Shown in pieces: positions 6,498 to 18,048 of a stretch of DNA of 25,510 nucleotides. Below the pieces are notes generated by a model, which saw only the letters and a list, made by a program, of their open reading frames with translations, did not search any database and was not told where the DNA came from. Made by a program: the position numbers and the translations under genes. Positions within the stretch are counted from its first letter, which is position 1. Each line of letters begins with the position of its first letter. The DNA comes from a virus. Location of the stretch: positions 1 through 25,510 of the IMG/VR virus record IMGVR_UViG_3300025823_000021; one strand, 5' to 3'.

Positions 6498-8642
6498 TCA
6501 CCCGAGATACTTCGACCGACGCTTTCTCTGCCTCGGTTGCGGCTCTGTTTTCGGTACCGGTTCCACCGAGGGAGCCGGCGCGGAGGCGATCCGCTCCAGC
6601 AGCGACCGCTCCGCCTCGAGGTCCATCCCCATCGAGAGCGCGGCGTAGTAGGCGCCGTCGCCGTACACGTGGGTGTCGAGTGCCTCGTTGCGAGAACCTT
6701 CTTTTTCGAGCATCCAGACGAACTCGTCGCGCCCAGCCTTGTTGGTCCGGGTCGCGCGAACCTCTGCGGTCAGCTGGTCGAAGTAGTCCGACGCTTTCAG
6801 CGTCCCGTCGCCCAGGTCCACGCCGAGGTCGCCCGGCAGTCGTCCAAACATCTTCCCGTTGATGCGCTGGCCCGGGATCGACCCCACCGGGAAGCGCGGG
6901 AAGTGGATGTAGCCGGGCCCGGGTTCGAGGATCCGGTTGAGTGAATACTGGAGCGTCGTCTTCGCGGGATCGACGTTGATCGTGTAGAGCGGGATCTTCC
7001 CGATGTTGTTGCGCGTCGGCTCGCGGACGAACACGTTGCCGGCCGGACCCGCGCGTCCCTTGATCCCGAACAGATACGCGCGTCGGCCATCCGGCGTCGC
7101 GTACACGGCCCGGTTGCGGCAGAACTCGTACGCGCGCTGCGCGTGGTGGCCCTGTGTGTCCAGGCACGTCGAGCGGATGTAGTCGACTCCGCCGCGCTCC
7201 ATCGGGAGCGGCCGGAGCATCAAGTCCCACATCTCGCCCCAGAGCGGCGGCGCGGATGGATCGCCGCGTAGGACGTAGTACGCGAGTTTCCACGACTCGT
7301 CGTTCAGGCCGTATCCGGTGATCTGGCCTTCGAGCCGATCGTCCTGGGTGTCGAACCCGGCGGTGATCAGAACCACCTCTTTGGGGACGACGACCAGGCC
7401 GGCGTGATTGGTCGGGTACTCCTCGAGTCGCTCGTTCAGATCGCCGCGGACCTTCACGCGCTGCTGCTTCCACGGCTCGCCAAGCACGGTGTTGATGAAC
7501 GCCTTCACGCGCTCACCCTTGCCCTGGGCCGTGATCCACTCTTCCGCGAGGTGCGGGAGCGACATGTTCGGCCACAGCGCGTACAGCCCGGAGAGTCGGA
7601 ACCCCGCGGTGCCGTTGAATGGCTTCGAGGCGATCCAGCCGATATCCGGGTCGTCTTCGTTCTCAGACGCGCGCCGGATCGCCCGGTGGCGCTGCGCCTC
7701 CGACCAGGGCTTCTCGCAGTCCTCGATTTCGCAGTAGTAGCGAGCGGTCGTCGGGAGATGCTCGCCGCGCGCGCCCTTCTTCCAGCGCACCTGTTCCCAG
7801 CGCAGCGTCTGGGGATGGCCGCAGTGTGGGCACGGGACGAACAATTGTCGCTGGTCGCTCTCCTCGTAGGCTTCGCAGATCCGATCGCCTTCGTCCGTCG
7901 GGGAGCTGTTCATGCCGATTTTCCGATTCGGAAACGTCGTCGTTCGCCGCGTCGCGATCGTCACGGGGTCGCCTTCGCTACCGGCCGACGCTGGGAAGCG
8001 GGCTACCTCGTTGAACAGGACCACGCGGATCGGGTCTCCGGCCAGGTCGGCCGCGACGTTCGCGCCGACCATCCGGATCGAGCCGCCCGGGAACTGCTTC
8101 TCGAGTGTCGTGTTGTCTGAGTCGCGGGACTTCGGGTCGCCGATGATCTGCCGGAGGACCGGCGTGTCGCGGATCATCGGCGCGAGTCTCGTCTTCGCGT
8201 TGTGCAGCGCGCCGTTTTTCGTCGGCTCGACGATCATCACCGGCGACGGGTCCTGGTGGACGAAGTACCCCACCGGGTTGAACACGCCGCCCTCACTCTT
8301 CGCCAGCTGGCTCGCCATCATCTGGACGACGGTCGTGACGCGCGGGTCACTGTACGCGTCCATCACCTCGCGCATGTACGGGACGCGTGAGGTCTTCCAC
8401 TGACCGGAGTACGCGGACGTGCCGGGGCTGACGATTCGGTATTTGTCAGCCCACTGACTGACTGTGAGTTTCGGCGGTGGCCGCAGCAGTTGAAGCGCGA
8501 CTCGCGCGGCTCTTCCGAGTGCCGGGTGCCCCTGTAGTTGGATCTGCGGCGACTTCGACTTCCGCTTCCGAGATCGAGGAGAGCGCGGCTTCGACCGCTT
8601 CGCGGATGAGGGTCGTTTTTTCCGCGAGCGTTTCGCAGTCAT
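6498..8642 (-). CDS. Terminase large subunit, lambda gpA family
   Basis: A 714-residue packaging motor and nuclease. It has a basic Lys/Arg/Ser N-terminal tail, then LTVSQWADKYRIVSPGTSAY, the usual start of the GpA family. The ATPase has a Walker A region QMMASQLAKSEGG at about 107-119. The Walker B segment VVLFNEV, at about 207-213, carries Asn211 where the family usually has Asp, before Glu212. A zinc knuckle is formed by Cys271, Cys274, Cys304 and Cys309. The nuclease domain opens with TAGFDTQDDRLEGQITGYG. The protein pumps DNA into the prohead and cuts concatemers. The ATG at 8642 has only a weak ribosome-binding site and lies 197 bases inside the small-subunit gene, so translation is probably coupled. 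Confidence 0.93.
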   Translation of the reverse strand: MTAKRSRKKRPSSAKRSKPRSPRSRKRKSKSPQIQLQGHPALGRAARVALQLLRPPPKLTVSQWADKYRIVSPGTSAYSGQWKTSRVPYMREVMDAYSDPRVTTVVQMMASQLAKSEGGVFNPVGYFVHQDPSPVMIVEPTKNGALHNAKTRLAPMIRDTPVLRQIIGDPKSRDSDNTTLEKQFPGGSIRMVGANVAADLAGDPIRVVLFNEVARFPASAGSEGDPVTIATRRTTTFPNRKIGMNSSPTDEGDRICEAYEESDQRQLFVPCPHCGHPQTLRWEQVRWKKGARGEHLPTTARYYCEIEDCEKPWSEAQRHRAIRRASENEDDPDIGWIASKPFNGTAGFRLSGLYALWPNMSLPHLAEEWITAQGKGERVKAFINTVLGEPWKQQRVKVRGDLNERLEEYPTNHAGLVVVPKEVVLITAGFDTQDDRLEGQITGYGLNDESWKLAYYVLRGDPSAPPLWGEMWDLMLRPLPMERGGVDYIRSTCLDTQGHHAQRAYEFCRNRAVYATPDGRRAYLFGIKGRAGPAGNVFVREPTRNNIGKIPLYTINVDPAKTTLQYSLNRILEPGPGYIHFPRFPVGSIPGQRINGKMFGRLPGDLGVDLGDGTLKASDYFDQLTAEVRATRTNKAGRDEFVWMLEKEGSRNEALDTHVYGDGAYYAALSMGMDLEAERSLLERIASAPAPSVEPVPKTEPQPRQRKRRSKYLG

Positions 8643-9036
8643 GGAGCCCCGTCGCGACGTCGTCCGGGAGCGACATGAATGCCGAGCGGACCTCGTGGAG
8701 AACTTGACTCCACGCCAACTGCACCTGGGGCGCGGGAATCAGCTTCCCGTCGAGGACGTCGAGTTCGCGTTCTTTGAGTTCAGCCTGGGCCGTCTTCAGC
8801 CGGCGCTCGGCTTCCTTGATGTCGACGATCTTGCCGCCCTGGCCGAGCTTGGTCTGGAGATCGACGATGTACGCCTTCGCACACTCGATCAGCGGATACC
8901 GGCCGCGCGACGCCTTCGGGATGACACCCTCTTGCGCGAGCTGCTGGACGCGTCGCTCGGTCAGGTTGAACAGCGCGGCGAGCGTTCCGACGTCGACTGT
9001 GTTCTGGGTCTTACTCTTCGTCTTGCGCGCTGCCAT
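8446..9036 (-). CDS. Terminase small subunit, Nu1-like
   Basis: A 196-residue protein. Residues about 12-60 are a winged helix-turn-helix, VDVGTLAALFNLTERRVQQL followed by AQEGVIPKASRGRYPL and an IVDLQTKL helix, the lambda Nu1 DNA-binding fold that recognises the packaging site. A long helical segment (IKEAERRLKTAQAELKEREL) and a region with AWSQVLHEVRSAFMSLPDD follow, as in Nu1-family proteins. The ATG at 9036 is preceded by CGGAGCGG. Upstream in-frame sequence overlaps other genes and is rejected. The C-terminal 65 residues overlap the large terminase gene in another frame. Confidence 0.85.
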   Translation of the reverse strand: MAARKTKSKTQNTVDVGTLAALFNLTERRVQQLAQEGVIPKASRGRYPLIECAKAYIVDLQTKLGQGGKIVDIKEAERRLKTAQAELKERELDVLDGKLIPAPQVQLAWSQVLHEVRSAFMSLPDDVATGLHDCETLAEKTTLIREAVEAALSSISEAEVEVAADPTTGAPGTRKSRASRASTAAATAETHSQSVG

Positions 9037-9163
9037 CACCGCTCCGGTGCAGTTCGCGCGGACCCATCGGCTCGACCTCGCCGCAGATCGGGCACCACGC
9101 CAACCAGGCCGGGCCCAGGACGGCGGTGCAGTCGTCGCCTGGACACAGGACGCGATCAGGCAA
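9011..9163 (-). CDS. 50-residue zinc-ribbon protein with a TTG start
   Basis: A short frame between the four-repeat zinc-ribbon gene and the small terminase. It begins TTG at 9163, eight bases before the TGA stop of the gene upstream, and ends TAA at 9011, 26 bases inside the small terminase gene. It encodes LPDRVLCPGDDC, then LAWCPICGEVEPM and an acidic tail, giving one CxxxxC/CxxC zinc-ribbon knuckle. Function is unknown; a DNA-binding or protein-binding accessory to packaging is possible. The Cys spacing and close fit to its neighbours support it as real, but the TTG start has only a weak upstream GGGATG. Confidence 0.5.
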   Translation of the reverse strand: MPDRVLCPGDDCTAVLGPAWLAWCPICGEVEPMGPRELHRSGDGSAQDEE

Positions 9164-9761
9164 TCGGCATCCCGATGTCGTACCCGGATTCGGAATCTCG
9201 GGCGCGCAGGAAGTCGGCGATCTCGGAACGGGTCGGGCACCGGTCGAGTGATTCGATCGGAGGCATTTTCGCGAGAATCTCGGCGCAGTCGTCTTCGGTC
9301 AGGGTGCTCTCTTTTCGGACGATCCGATCGATTCGGCCCACACTCGCGCAGTCCTGGCAGACCTTCGCGTGTCGCGAAAGGCCGAGCACGGGTTCACCGC
9401 AGTGCTTGCAGGGTTTCGGTTCAGCGATCGCTTTCTTGCGGAAGCACTGGAGACAGATCCTCGCCTGCCTCGCACGGTTGACGATCGGGCGAGAGCAAGC
9501 GCTACATCGCTTTGGCCCTACCCGCTTCGTGGGCGTGTATGGCTTGCGGCGTCGAACCAAGCCATGTCCGGACGCTGCACAGTCGAGACAATACTTGGCG
9601 CACTTCGAACGCCCCGTGATTTCACCGTCGCAGTGACGACAGATTCGCGGCTTCACTACCCGTCGCCGTCCGCCGCGCCCTTCGTCGACGCAGTCCAGGC
9701 AGTAGCAGGCGCCCGCTGACCGGTTCACGATGGGTCGTTTGCAGGCGCGACATGGTTTCAT
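9156..9761 (-). CDS. Four-repeat zinc-ribbon protein, unknown function
   Basis: A 201-residue protein with four copies of one knuckle. Each is CxxC, exactly 13 residues, then CxxC: Cys4/7-21/24, Cys41/44-58/61, Cys86/89-103/106 and Cys118/121-135/138. The first and third copies share PIVNR after the first pair. Linkers are Arg/Lys-rich (RRRVVKPR, LVRRRKPYTPTKR). The C-terminal 60 residues have no Cys pair and contain an acidic helical part. It is probably a nucleic-acid or protein-binding factor. Lying just ahead of the terminase genes, it may act in packaging-site recognition or in late transcription. There is no obvious ribosome-binding site at the ATG at 9761; a weak GGGGG lies upstream. 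The repeats suggest internal duplication. Confidence 0.75.
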   Translation of the reverse strand: MKPCRACKRPIVNRSAGACYCLDCVDEGRGGRRRVVKPRICRHCDGEITGRSKCAKYCLDCAASGHGLVRRRKPYTPTKRVGPKRCSACSRPIVNRARQARICLQCFRKKAIAEPKPCKHCGEPVLGLSRHAKVCQDCASVGRIDRIVRKESTLTEDDCAEILAKMPPIESLDRCPTRSEIADFLRARDSESGYDIGMPIA

Positions 9762-10988: not shown

Positions 10989-11645
10989 CTACAGTCCTGG
11001 GAAGCGGATGCGCTCGAATTCCCGCTTGGCCTTAGGGGTGAAGTTCGCCTCGGCCGTGCGCTGTGCAACGCGGTAGAACTCGACGGTCGGGTCGAGGTCG
11101 GCTGAATCGCGCAGCACGTACGCGAGGCGGATCGGGTAGCGGCGCTTGCCGGTGCGAACGAAGATCCTGTCTCCGTCGTTCGAGAGAAACCCGCGACCAC
11201 CAGGTCCGGTCAGGGCTGACGGAGTGCGACGCTTGCCTACACGGCCCCGGGCGCCACGCTTGATGTTGACCGGAATCGCCAATCGACCGCGGAACGTGAT
11301 GCGCTCCACCCGACCGGACGGCCCGATCGTCGCGCCTTCGCGATGCTGGAGAAGAATCTCCTCGGACTTCGAAGGCGCTCCAGTCGGAGACGTACCGCGC
11401 GGCGTGACGTACGCGACCAGGCTGTCCGGCTTCGCACCGAACGACCGGAATCCTGCGATGAACCGGCCGGCACTCGCGCCCGCGTTCGGAAACGTGCGCT
11501 CGATGTGTTCCTGTTCGGCCTCGCGGATGTCGAGCGCGGTACGCGACAGTGCGCGCGCCATCGCGCGACCGACTTCTTGATTGCTCAGCTTGACGAGGTT
11601 GCGCCGGAGCTCGCGCGTGTCGAGCGTGATGAACGACTCGGCCAC
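10989..11645 (-). CDS. Minor tail protein Z-like (lambda gpZ / HK97 gp10 class)
   Basis: A 218-residue protein. The N-terminal helix FITLDTRELRRNLVKLSNQE, ALSRTALDIREAEQEH and GRFIAGFRSFGAKPDSLVAY match the gpZ/gp10 group of tail-completion proteins. It has a basic middle part (RGRLAIPVNIKRGARGRVGK) and a C-terminal helix. In lambda, Z lies between FII and U and prepares the tail for joining; here it is the first late gene, far upstream of the terminase. The GTG at 11645 has GGGAG at good spacing. The upstream terminator at 11655-11694 ends only a few bases before that site. Confidence 0.7.
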   Translation of the reverse strand: MAESFITLDTRELRRNLVKLSNQEVGRAMARALSRTALDIREAEQEHIERTFPNAGASAGRFIAGFRSFGAKPDSLVAYVTPRGTSPTGAPSKSEEILLQHREGATIGPSGRVERITFRGRLAIPVNIKRGARGRVGKRRTPSALTGPGGRGFLSNDGDRIFVRTGKRRYPIRLAYVLRDSADLDPTVEFYRVAQRTAEANFTPKAKREFERIRFPGL

Positions 11646-11654
11646 GGCGTGCTC

Positions 11655-11694
11655 CCAAAAAAGAGGCGGCCTCCGAGGGGAATCGAAGGCCGCC
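11655..11694 (-). terminator. Strong rho-independent terminator, lambda tR'-like position
   Basis: On the minus strand GGCGGCCT and AGGCCGCC (11687-11694 and 11665-11672) form an 8-bp perfect G+C stem with a 14-base loop, followed at once by TCTTTTTT. This is a textbook intrinsic terminator. It ends next to the ribosome-binding site of the first late gene at 11645, so no promoter can fit between them. Transcripts from the early operon stop here unless antitermination occurs. Confidence 0.8.
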
Positions 11695-11733
11695 GAATTG
11701 GATGGGTTTGATCGAAGAGAGCGGGATCAAGGG

Positions 11734-11763
11734 ACGCGCCGCTGTGTCAGACACACGACGCGT
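11734..11763. promoter_or_regulatory. Palindromic site, possible operator
   Basis: TGTGTC-A-GACACA is a perfect 13-base palindrome at 11743-11755, flanked by the outer arms ACGCG (11734-11738) and CGCGT (11759-11763). It could bind a dimeric regulator or form a hairpin in RNA. It lies between the structured repeats and the terminator. Confidence 0.4.
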
Positions 11764-11778
11764 AGCATGACCAGAATT

Positions 11779-11815
11779 GCACTTTTCTCGCGGGTCGGCA
11801 AGGTCGCAAAAGTGC
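11779..11815. repeat. 8+8 bp inverted repeat in the late control region
   Basis: GCACTTTT (11779-11786) and AAAAGTGC (11808-11815) are perfect inverted copies with a 21-base spacer. The second arm overlaps the start of one of the two longer repeats. They may be an operator pair or RNA hairpin. Nothing coding is seen here. Confidence 0.4.
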
Positions 11816-11881
11816 CTCGAAACGCGGGATTTCGTGGCAGTTTTTCCCCGTGGAACGCTCGAAACCCGCGATTTCGTGGCA
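11814..11881. repeat. Two 26-bp direct repeats, 42 bp apart, each an imperfect palindrome
   Basis: Copies at 11814-11839 and 11856-11881 agree at 22 of 26 positions. On the minus strand both read TGCCACGAAATC, CG, then GTTTCGAG. In the 11814 copy the arms TGCCTCGAAA and TTTCGTGGCA pair with one mismatch. The 42-base offset equals four helical turns, so two proteins could bind on one face. This suggests activator or repressor sites for late transcription. A replication or packaging site is an alternative. Confidence 0.6.
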
Positions 11882-12142
11882 CTACGAATGATTTGCTGTA
11901 GCGGCCGCTGAGAGCATCCCAGGCAGCAGCGGGACGATCGCTCGCAACTGCTGCGTCGTGACACCCTGGCGCGACAGGTACCACGCGGCCGAGATCAGCT
12001 TCACTTCGGATTCGGTGTAAAGCGCTTGATTTCCGCTTGCCACACGCGCGCTCGGCTCGACGATGCCCTTCTCTCGCCAGCTCCGTAGGCGGCTGCGCGG
12101 GATGCCGACGATCCGGCTGACCTCGCGCGGTTTGTACGTCAT
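11882..12142 (-). CDS. MerR-like helix-turn-helix protein
   Basis: An 86-residue protein starting MTYKPREVSRIVGIPRSRLR. It has the winged helix-turn-helix of the MerR superfamily: EVSRIVGIPRSRLRSWREKG, then an ALYTESEVKLISAAWYL segment, then QGVTTQQLRAIVPLL. It has no effector-binding domain, so it resembles small excisionase or regulator proteins of phages. The ATG at 12142 overlaps the upstream stop (ATGA). It is the last gene of the early operon and lies directly beside the repeat-rich control region, so it is a natural candidate for the protein that binds those repeats and turns on late genes. An excisionase role is possible, but no integrase is visible. Confidence 0.72.
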   Translation of the reverse strand: MTYKPREVSRIVGIPRSRLRSWREKGIVEPSARVASGNQALYTESEVKLISAAWYLSRQGVTTQQLRAIVPLLPGMLSAAATANHS

Positions 12143-12705
12143 CGCGTGCATCCGCGCCCCATCCGCTGCTTCACCACCAGCCGCGCACGGTTCACCCATC
12201 TCCAGACAATATCGCGTGTCCACCACTCGGGAAACGCCGGCTGGACTTTCAATCCGTTCGCATACTCCGCCGCGCTTTGGTAACTGCCGATCTTCGGGTG
12301 CAGGTACACGCGCCACGCCTGGAGAGCGAACGACCAGCGATCCGCCTCCCACGCACGTGGACGGTTGTCCATGATCGAGCGGAGGTACTCGTACTCGTCG
12401 AGATCGCGGACCAGATGACGCTCAGGGTCCGGTGATGGGCCTCCCCCTGCCTTCGGAACGTCGAACTCTCCCGACTCGTCCTGCGTCCACGGCTGCCGGC
12501 ACGACGCGCAGATTTCGACCAGGTGCCAGCGACCAGGAAGGCGCTTGCCGCGGAACTCGATCGTCTTCGGCCCGCCTTTGCAGCGCGCACAGATGACGCC
12601 GCGAATCGCGCGCAAGTCCTGTGCTTGGATCGAGTAGCGCGAATCGACGAGGTGGAAGTAGCGCGACGCGACCTCATCCGGTGTGTGGAACTTTCGGATG
12701 GTCAG
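12139..12705 (-). CDS. Zinc-ribbon phage protein, probable CTG start
   Basis: A protein of about 188 residues reading LTIRKFHTPDEVASRYFHLV from its proposed start. It contains one zinc ribbon: CARC, 26 residues, then CASC. The C-terminal half is aromatic and helical (WEADRWSFALQAWRVYLHP, FPEWWTRDIVWRWVN). No ATG or GTG lies at a sensible place. The CTG at 12705 overlaps the stop of the upstream gene as CTGA and has GGGAG eight bases before it, exactly like the ATGA/GTGA junctions around it. The in-frame GTG at 12924 would bury the upstream gene and is less likely. Function is unknown; nucleic-acid binding is plausible. Confidence 0.6.
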   Translation of the reverse strand: MTIRKFHTPDEVASRYFHLVDSRYSIQAQDLRAIRGVICARCKGGPKTIEFRGKRLPGRWHLVEICASCRQPWTQDESGEFDVPKAGGGPSPDPERHLVRDLDEYEYLRSIMDNRPRAWEADRWSFALQAWRVYLHPKIGSYQSAAEYANGLKVQPAFPEWWTRDIVWRWVNRARLVVKQRMGRGCTR

Positions 12706-12953
12706 TGCTTTGGCTCCCGCTGTGACTCGCGCGCCGCCCGCTCCGCAGCGCGCTGCCGGATCTGGTCTCGGGCCTGCTTCGCGCGCTGTAGAGCGTTTTC
12801 GCTCACGAGACTCCGGATCTCCTGCGCTCTGTGATAGCGGGTCCAGTAGATCAGGCAGCACCCGAAAGCCATTAAGGCCAGCCCGTAACTGATCTGGATC
12901 GCGCCGGCGATAATCGCCCCCCACCCCAACCGAATCCAGGTCTCGTCCTTCAC
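12702..12953 (-). CDS. Small single-pass membrane protein with a charged tail
   Basis: An 83-residue protein. Residues about 10-36 form a hydrophobic span (GWGAIIAGAIQISYGLALMA, FGCCLIYW), followed by a highly charged helical tail (ENALQRAKQARDQIRQRAAE). The tail is probably cytoplasmic by the positive-inside rule. The ATG at 12953 overlaps the stop of the gene upstream (TGATG). Its role is unknown: it could be a membrane anchor for a replication or host-takeover factor, or a holin-type protein, but there is no neighbouring lysin to support that. Confidence 0.6.
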   Translation of the reverse strand: MKDETWIRLGWGAIIAGAIQISYGLALMAFGCCLIYWTRYHRAQEIRSLVSENALQRAKQARDQIRQRAAERAARESQREPKH

Positions 12954-13975: not shown

Positions 13976-14421
13976 CAGTGCTCCCCCGCGCCCAACTGCG
14001 CCATGATCTCGCCCGGACCGATCGCGATCGCCGGCGCGAGCGGCTCGAACTCACCGGCCGTCACCGCATAGCGCTTGCCTTGAGGCGGCCACTCGCGTGG
14101 CGGCGGCAGGTATTTGCCCGCGTGATACTGCTCGCGGTGCATCCCGGCCGCGTAGCGAGCAGCGGACCAGATGTCAGCCGGAAGCGGTACTCGGTTCCAG
14201 TGGTGTGAGCGCAACAGGCCGCGAATCGCCACGGCGAGGAAGTGCAGCGGGATCTCTTCGGTCACGAACACATACTGGTCGACCCGCGTCCCGAGTTCCT
14301 CCGCGTACACCGCGAACAGGCCGCTGATCAGCTTCGTGCGCATTTCGAGTACTTCGGCACTCGCGCGCTGCGTGGCGCCGCCATCGATCACCTGGTCCAA
14401 CACGCTTCTAAGCTCGTCCAT
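13975..14421 (-). CDS. Helicase-loader-like replication accessory protein (tentative)
   Basis: A 148-residue protein that is helical in its first two thirds. It contains LISGLFAVYAEELGTRVDQY, then IPLHFLAVAIRGLLRSHHWN and RVPLPADIWSAARYA. This succession (enzyme-like YAEEL, a helix, then a hydrophobic helix and RxPLPADI) resembles the G39P/DnaC-accessory proteins that load or restrain the replicative helicase. The C-terminal part is Pro-rich and less conserved-looking. It lies directly after the replication-initiator gene, overlapping it by 14 bases, which supports a joint role in phage replication. The assignment rests on pattern and position only. Confidence 0.45.
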   Translation of the reverse strand: MDELRSVLDQVIDGGATQRASAEVLEMRTKLISGLFAVYAEELGTRVDQYVFVTEEIPLHFLAVAIRGLLRSHHWNRVPLPADIWSAARYAAGMHREQYHAGKYLPPPREWPPQGKRYAVTAGEFEPLAPAIAIGPGEIMAQLGAGEH

Positions 14422-15355
14422 GCGTCACCCTCGCTATCGCTGCCTGTAAATCCGTGTCGAACTTTTCGCGCTTGGCGGCCGGGGACGCGCGAGCGTTGCG
14501 GCGCGCGGCGTTCGTGAGTTGCGGCCACTTGTTGCGAAGGTCGGCCCCGGACCGGATCTCGACTTCGTAGCCCGAGTCGCGGTTCGCGGGCGACATCGCC
14601 CATCGCACCGCGATCACGAGGCGATCGATGAGCGCTTTCTCGCCGGACGCTTCGAACAACTGGCCCAGTTCAGGGGCGCATTCCGGCATCTCGGCGATCG
14701 CCTTCGCCGAACGCAGCCGCCATCCCTTCGGGAACGCGGCGCCCTCCACGGACTGGAGTTCCGACTCGAGTACGTCGACCACGGCGAACGCCCAGCCAGG
14801 TGGCGGGTTGGGCTTCAACTTCGGTTTCGATCGGGTGGAACTCGAGACCGGAGCCGCCGGAGGCGGCGACTTGGGGTGTTCTTTAGGCCCAGGCCCAGGT
14901 ACTGGCTCAGGCCCAGGCCCAGGAAGTGCGCCTATGGGCGGACGTTGGCGGACAGTGTCGGCCGTTGGCGGACAACGTTTGCCACCGTTCGCCGTTGGCT
15001 GCCCAGAGTGGTCGGGCGGCAGACTCGCGAACAACTGACCAGCCCGGTGCACACGCTTGAGAACCCAGTCCTCGCAGTGCGCGTGCCAGTTGTGAACGAC
15101 GAGACGATGGTCAGGGTGGGTATCGATCCACCGGGTTGAGACAAGCGCCTCTACGAGTTCGCGACCTGGGCACCGGTCCCAATCGAGGCCGGCCGCGATC
15201 TCGTCGTCAGTGAAGCGCCCGACATCGCCACGCTGCGCGTTCTCGGCCGTGAAATCCCACAGCGCCTGAAGTAGCCCCTTCGCTTCCCAACTGGAAAGCG
15301 TGAGCTTCCGCTGCAACAGCCGAAACTTCAGCTTGAGGTCTGTACCTCGCTTCAT
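14408..15355 (-). CDS. Replication initiator-like protein (winged helix N-terminus, lambda O analog)
   Basis: A 315-residue protein. The N-terminal 110 residues (LTLSSWEAKGLLQALWDFTA, RFTDDEIAAGLDWD, HRLVVHNWHAHCEDWVLKR) form the helix-turn-helix domain of phage replisome-organiser proteins. A Pro/Gly-rich flexible linker (ALPGPGPEPVPGPGPKEH) separates it from a helical C-terminal domain (FAVVDVLESELQSVEG, LIDRLVIAVRWAMSP), probably the helicase-recruiting part. Lambda O has the same two-domain plan with origin iterons inside its gene; iteron-like repeats lie at 14944-15000 within the linker region here. The ATG at 15355 has GGGGGTG upstream. The stop overlaps the helicase-loader-like gene. 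Confidence 0.68.
   Translation of the reverse strand: MKRGTDLKLKFRLLQRKLTLSSWEAKGLLQALWDFTAENAQRGDVGRFTDDEIAAGLDWDRCPGRELVEALVSTRWIDTHPDHRLVVHNWHAHCEDWVLKRVHRAGQLFASLPPDHSGQPTANGGKRCPPTADTVRQRPPIGALPGPGPEPVPGPGPKEHPKSPPPAAPVSSSTRSKPKLKPNPPPGWAFAVVDVLESELQSVEGAAFPKGWRLRSAKAIAEMPECAPELGQLFEASGEKALIDRLVIAVRWAMSPANRDSGYEVEIRSGADLRNKWPQLTNAARRNARASPAAKREKFDTDLQAAIARVTHGRA
14944..15000. repeat. Iteron-like repeats inside the replication gene, candidate origin
   Basis: GTTGGCGGACA occurs at 14944-14954 and 14964-14974, and GTTGGC again at 14994-14999. The offsets are 20 and 30 bases, so all copies face about the same side of the helix. A further GGCGGAC lies just upstream at about 14938. They fall in the linker-coding part of the initiator gene, where protein sequence is least constrained, as for the lambda origin. 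Part of the repeat could simply reflect Pro codons. Confidence 0.4.
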
Positions 15356-18009: not shown

Positions 18010-18019
18010 GACGCGACCG

Positions 18020-18048
18020 AAGCTAGGCGTATCCGACTCGGATGTCAA
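18020..18048 (-). promoter_or_regulatory. Repressor promoter with a palindromic operator, leaderless start
   Basis: On the minus strand TTGACA (18043-18048) and TAGCTT (18020-18025) are separated by exactly 17 bases. The spacer contains the perfect palindrome ATCCGA-C-TCGGAT (plus strand 18031-18043). Transcription should begin only about four bases before the ATG at 18009, like the leaderless lambda cI mRNA. The operator position between -35 and -10 suggests autorepression. Confidence 0.65.

Follow-up and report, generated by a model that had tools for sequence, protein, structure and literature searches.

Positions 11646 to 11881 (236 bases) of an uncultured phage form a real control region, which was read, with a probability of about 0.48, as the switch that takes a gpA-terminase phage from early to late transcription, with an activated late promoter followed, in this reading, by a terminator that would have to be overridden. 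The DNA analyzed was IMG/VR record IMGVR_UViG_3300025823_000021, positions 1 to 25,510, and this whole stretch of 25,510 bases is called the window. The features of the region support a late promoter with activator sites and then a terminator. The layout recalls known phage switches, but the adjoining proteins resemble no switch protein known so far. Each element is of a familiar kind; what is unusual is their combination with orphan proteins. The promoter candidate, the 5-7-5 geometry of the sites and a zinc-motif protein as second candidate regulator are additions to the first-pass annotation.

The minus strand carries every recognisable gene from about 18,069 down to 1. Its early part encodes, in order, a repressor-like protein, a replication-initiation-like protein (14408-15355), small early genes, the zinc-motif protein (12139-12726) and a MerR-like protein (11882-12142), and its late part a minor tail protein Z-like product (10989-11645), the small and large terminase subunits and capsid E. 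With early genes above and virion genes below on that strand, the region was placed as the early/late boundary; one minus-strand gene run crosses it, with a single strong terminator at the boundary. The first late gene, the Z-like one, has a GTG start and matched phrog_1924 (PHROG E 4.8e-14; Pfam Minor_tail_Z 0.29). No close-range relatives of its protein were found.

The strong minus-strand terminator of the first-pass annotation was confirmed. It lies at 11657-11694, with a perfect, GC-rich stem of 12 bp (11694-11665), the loop TTCCCC and the tail TCTTTTTT, its U-tract being U at 7 of 8 positions (MFE -25.1 kcal/mol, z -5.3). No other strict terminator occurred in the window, and none turned up in 40 shuffled windows; on the minus strand it was also the sole strong one. 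Between the last base of the U-tract (11657) and the GTG start (11645) is a gap of 11 nt. It holds the likely Shine-Dalgarno sequence of the first late gene, GGGAG (11652-11656, minus strand), which follows directly on the U-tract, so there is no room for a promoter after the terminator, as had been claimed from a T-run ending about 10 bases before the first late gene. Override by antitermination would be the most economical reading of this arrangement.

The main rival, serious if somewhat unlikely, is that the terminator is a leaky end of the early operon: most early transcripts would stop, the rest would read through, and late output would rise as gene copies increase and the upstream promoter is activated. 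Such a system would have no antiterminator. Across the related loci compared, 26 of 246 strong terminators abutted a gene start, without an obvious override system, so abutment alone is no proof of a processive antiterminator. Several of these lay in late regions, far downstream of the large terminase gene, so gene-start-abutting hairpins can also act as attenuators. The leaky end is also consistent with the lack of a recognisable antiterminator, and with two relatives (L004 and L058) that do without a terminator at this place; the perfect GC-rich stem and the U-tract, however, predict efficient termination, and such a stop would be badly placed in front of the full set of virion genes. In related phages, well beyond terL, strong terminators ran into the ribosome-binding site of the following gene at 8414 in L165, 13414 and 16470 in L062, 16710 in L017 and 17870 in L018; these may be dosage attenuators.

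No homologous junction was found among related contigs, so that the comparison with related phages suggested in the first-pass annotation speaks neither for nor against conservation of the repeats and terminator. L004 (terminase 57% identical), the closest of the relatives whose upstream part is complete, had a Z-like gene near the head of the late genes, early genes in the opposite direction, and a promoter-like site with no terminator before the late genes. In L058 the order was a DUF6362 gene, a promoter-like site and a Z-like gene, again with no terminator; the terminator is thus not general to this gene order. A Z-like minor tail gene was located upstream of the terminase in L004 (3337-3897), L058 (2937-3509), L017 (6863-7447), L019 (3936-4520) and L137 (1-456), whereas in lambda Z lies among the tail genes; such a position upstream of the terminase is a feature of these distant gpA phages.

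Promoters were scanned on the minus strand (25,475 positions) with a sigma70 weight matrix of hexamer frequencies. The best match (18020-18048, minus strand; TTGACA-17-TAGCTT; rank 1) is a likely early promoter; no strong minus-strand terminators were found between it and 11694, and transcripts from it would run to the terminator. It ends about 11 bases before the ATG (18009) of the repressor-like gene, so the mRNA made from it may have almost no leader. The candidate late promoter (11773-11801, minus strand) has TTGCCG as -35 (11801-11796), a spacer of 17 bp and AATTCT as -10 (11778-11773), and sits between the repeats and the terminator. Its score of 7.4 ranked 3 of the 25,475 positions, vs. 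5.1 or less for all other candidates in the late region. Shuffles of the AT-richer region scored as well in 61 of 1000 cases, and the sequence evidence for this putative promoter was good but not strong.

From the promoter candidate, transcription would yield a terminated leader of 110 nt (11657-11766, minus strand), predicted to fold into hairpins at 11763-11734 and 11730-11708 plus the terminator. The predicted folding was more stable than expected (z -5.98), with 0 of 200 shuffles as stable. The first hairpin begins 3 nt after the inferred start, and its tip is the 13-base palindrome TGTGTCAGACACA (11743-11755). Near the predicted start, the hexamer CATGCT at 11769-11764 matches the sigma-dependent pause element at 3 of 6 positions, and no pause element was called. 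A leader so compact, so highly structured and so bounded by a promoter candidate and a terminator could instead be a phage small RNA acting in trans from its own promoter, late genes depending on another event. Eighteen nucleotides of the leader (11722-11739) are exactly complementary to terL mRNA at 7051-7068, as a trans-acting RNA might be; the complementarity is probably chance. The predicted energy of pairing with terL was no better than that of shuffled leaders, and Rfam gave only sub-threshold chance matches, which makes the small RNA very unlikely.

Upstream of the promoter candidate lie two 24-bp direct repeats on the minus strand (11858-11881 and 11816-11839), identical at 22 of 24 positions and offset by 42 bp, or four helical turns. 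Over 60 dinucleotide shuffles of the region, no pair of 24-mers matched at more than 17 of 24 positions; the repeats are far above chance. Each contains a near-palindrome of 17 bp with 5-7-5 geometry, CGAAA-N7-TTTCG: CGAAATCGCGGGTTTCG at 11860-11876 in repeat 1 (center 11868, about -102 from the inferred start) and CGAAATCCCGCGTTTCG at 11818-11834 in repeat 2 (center 11826, about -60). There were exactly two such sites in the window, and two occurred in 0 of 100 shuffled windows. The first-pass annotation had described two 26-bp palindromic repeats offset by 42 bp; the repeats and their offset are real, and they are better described as direct repeats of 24 bp that enclose the 5-7-5 near-palindrome. 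Positions such as -60 and -102 are typical for activators that touch the polymerase from upstream, as at CRP class I promoters.

The 8+8 inverted repeat GCACTTTT/AAAAGTGC (11779-11815; arms 11779-11786 and 11808-11815) straddles the -35, one arm occupying the end of the promoter spacer. Both this inverted repeat and the 13-base palindrome, listed in the first-pass annotation, were present, but neither alone was above chance: 8+8 inverted repeats arose in 235 of 2000 shuffles of the region (about 12%), and 13-base palindromes in 181 of 2000. The exact direct repeat did not occur elsewhere in viral contigs. A search for the degenerate double site returned seven stretches, all simple or dispersed repeats and unrelated. 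Many pairs of the palindrome CGAAAG-N5-CTTTCG, 37-38 bp apart, were observed in L183, L184, L186, L187 and L188 (IMGVR_UViG_3300021400_000020 and one other contig) and constitute an unexplained dispersed repeat family.

The candidate binder of the two sites is the MerR-type winged-helix protein of 86 aa encoded immediately upstream (11882-12142, minus strand; Pfam MerR_1 E 4.4e-11). Its model (pLDDT 79) aligned with MtaN, CueR, TnrA and GlnR, with a Z of 11.0 over 79 residues for TnrA 4r24. No AlpA or Q structure was among the matches that Foldseek and VIA-align listed for this model, an absence that excludes nothing. No relatives of the protein were found in phages, viral contigs or plasmids, and the literature search on a MerR-type phage late activator returned nothing on point. 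GlnR and TnrA, which are short and dimerize weakly, lack a coiled coil and bind TGTNA-N7-TNACA (PMC6191146). The phage protein likewise has a short winged-helix MerR fold with no room for a long coiled coil, and in both cases the promoter region carries at least two 5-7-5 palindromes of 17 bp; the protein is therefore a natural candidate binder of the repeats. The half-sites differ (CGAAA-N7-TTTCG in the phage), sequence identity is about 15-21%, and the phage offers no nitrogen context. At classical MerR promoters the operator lies in a spacer of 19-20 bp, whereas here the candidate spacer is 17 bp and the repeats are upstream. By predicted fold and site geometry, the first-pass proposal of the MerR-like protein as a site-binding regulator appears credible.

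If the MerR-type domain were Xis-like or terminase-small-like, the repeats would be recombination or packaging sites instead of transcription sites. This highly unlikely reading would agree with the PHROG profiles that the protein matched weakly, namely transposase and excisionase (phrog_6620 and phrog_66) and the terminase small subunit (E 0.096), but MerR_1 was by far the best family match, Pfam matches were to helix-turn-helix families only, the window showed no integrase, the terminase genes are 2.6 kb away, and the sites are in phase with the promoter candidate. The cos site or replication origin that the first-pass annotation had offered as alternative was not supported and is extremely unlikely: repeats and palindromes do occur within a non-coding gap, but no DnaA box or IHF consensus was found in 11600-11950, terS lies downstream of four other genes, 2.6 kb from the region, and a contig 100% identical over 9139 bases (L003) ends at 9139, between a zinc-motif gene and terS, not at the junction. 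A packaging end at 9139 is conceivable, yet L005, likewise identical, has its start elsewhere, at 7268. These two near-identical contigs stop at window positions 9139 and 7268, short of the junction, as do the capsid relatives L179-L181. Two CxxC-rich proteins are encoded just before terS (9156-9761 and 9011-9163), one with several repeated CxxC pairs and one a small Com-like ORF.

The switch reading has a second candidate regulator in the zinc-motif protein (12139-12726, minus strand; 195 aa; CxxC-x23-CxxC), the stop of whose gene shares the four bases ATGA with the MerR-like start, so that the two proteins are probably made together, like GafY and GafZ. The zinc-motif protein had no Pfam match at E up to 10, in a search that retrieved PF03589 at 6e-58 for the lambda Q control; no family or structure match and no known antiterminator was found for it, nor any relatives. 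Its model (pLDDT 44) was unusable, too poor for structure search. Lambda Q has CxxC-x22-CxxC, a likeness in spacing that proves nothing, because zinc ribbons are common. In L004, a zinc-ribbon protein (964-1767; Zn_ribbon_TFIIB E 0.002) is encoded near the late genes; its match to a sigma region 4-like domain was weak, and it is a possible late regulator; kinship of the zinc-motif protein with it was considered and is not claimed, as similarity stayed at E 0.15.

The region resembles lambda pR'-tR' in that regulator genes, promoter, short terminated leader and late genes follow one another and are all co-directional, with the early genes on the same strand. The lambda-like late layout of the first-pass annotation thus holds as to a promoter candidate upstream of a terminator ahead of the late genes, but no Q-family protein was recognized: no gene for a recognizable one adjoins the region, and the MerR-like protein gave helix-turn-helix matches only. 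The distance from tR' to S in lambda is about 400 bp (lambda record, tR' position from sequence), whereas the present terminator touches the ribosome-binding site. Lambda Q is not known to need upstream activator sites.

AlpA of P. aeruginosa is likewise an overriding protein at a promoter followed by a terminator (PMC7969949, PMC9371919). The intrinsic terminator between promoter and first gene, as at alpB, is shared with the phage region, and a small DNA-binding protein performs the override in AlpA's case; the AlpA element GGGACG, which lies in the promoter spacer there, is absent from the spacer here and occurs on the other strand only (11731 and 11931). GafYZ, of the Caulobacter gene transfer agent, combines an activator and an antiterminator with a promoter and an overridden terminator (PMC11150451). 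The phage region is similar to it in having adjacent genes for an activator and an antiterminator as candidates, with the activator far upstream of a weak -35 and a downstream terminator to override. The GafZ palindrome between -35 and -10, the need for IHF and the location of the terminator after the first gene were not seen here; a central promoter palindrome of the GafZ type is absent, as the inverted repeat lies across the -35 and puts no more than one arm into the spacer. Lambda Q, AlpA and GafYZ share little or no sequence; the mechanism is common and the sequence is not, so antiterminators are found by layout, not by homology.

In the proposed switch, early transcripts from near 18013 would end at 11657, and late transcription would start near 11766, where a sigma70-type promoter of low strength would be assisted by the MerR-like protein, bound as a dimer to the two 5-7-5 sites, which lie near -60 and -102 and in helical phase. 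The polymerase from 11766 would make the leader of 110 nt and go no further than the terminator. To read through into the virion genes it would have to be modified, at the promoter or close to it, by a factor like Q, AlpA or GafZ, which may be the zinc-motif protein, the MerR-like protein, or both. Counted for the switch were the one strict terminator with no promoter room after it, the best late promoter candidate upstream of it, the stable leader, repeats above chance, the likeness of the MerR-like model and its sites to GlnR and TnrA, and the precedents of AlpA and GafYZ; counted against it were a promoter score unexceptional for an AT-richer stretch, the lack of an antiterminator match, the two relatives with no terminator, the recurrence of abutting terminators and the lack of a homologous junction.

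A more specific form, doubtful as it stands, is a two-protein late switch not previously described, in which a short GlnR/TnrA-type activator at two phased sites would recruit the polymerase to the weak late promoter, and the adjacent zinc-motif protein, of a new family, would load there and act as a processive antiterminator, so that polymerase passes the terminator joined to the ribosome-binding site of the first late gene. If the switch works as proposed, it would extend the short list of known phage late switches by one that pairs an activator with a terminator and has orphan regulators. If true, it would also give a search rule for others: orphan DNA-binding genes next to a strong terminator that runs directly into the ribosome-binding site of the first late gene.
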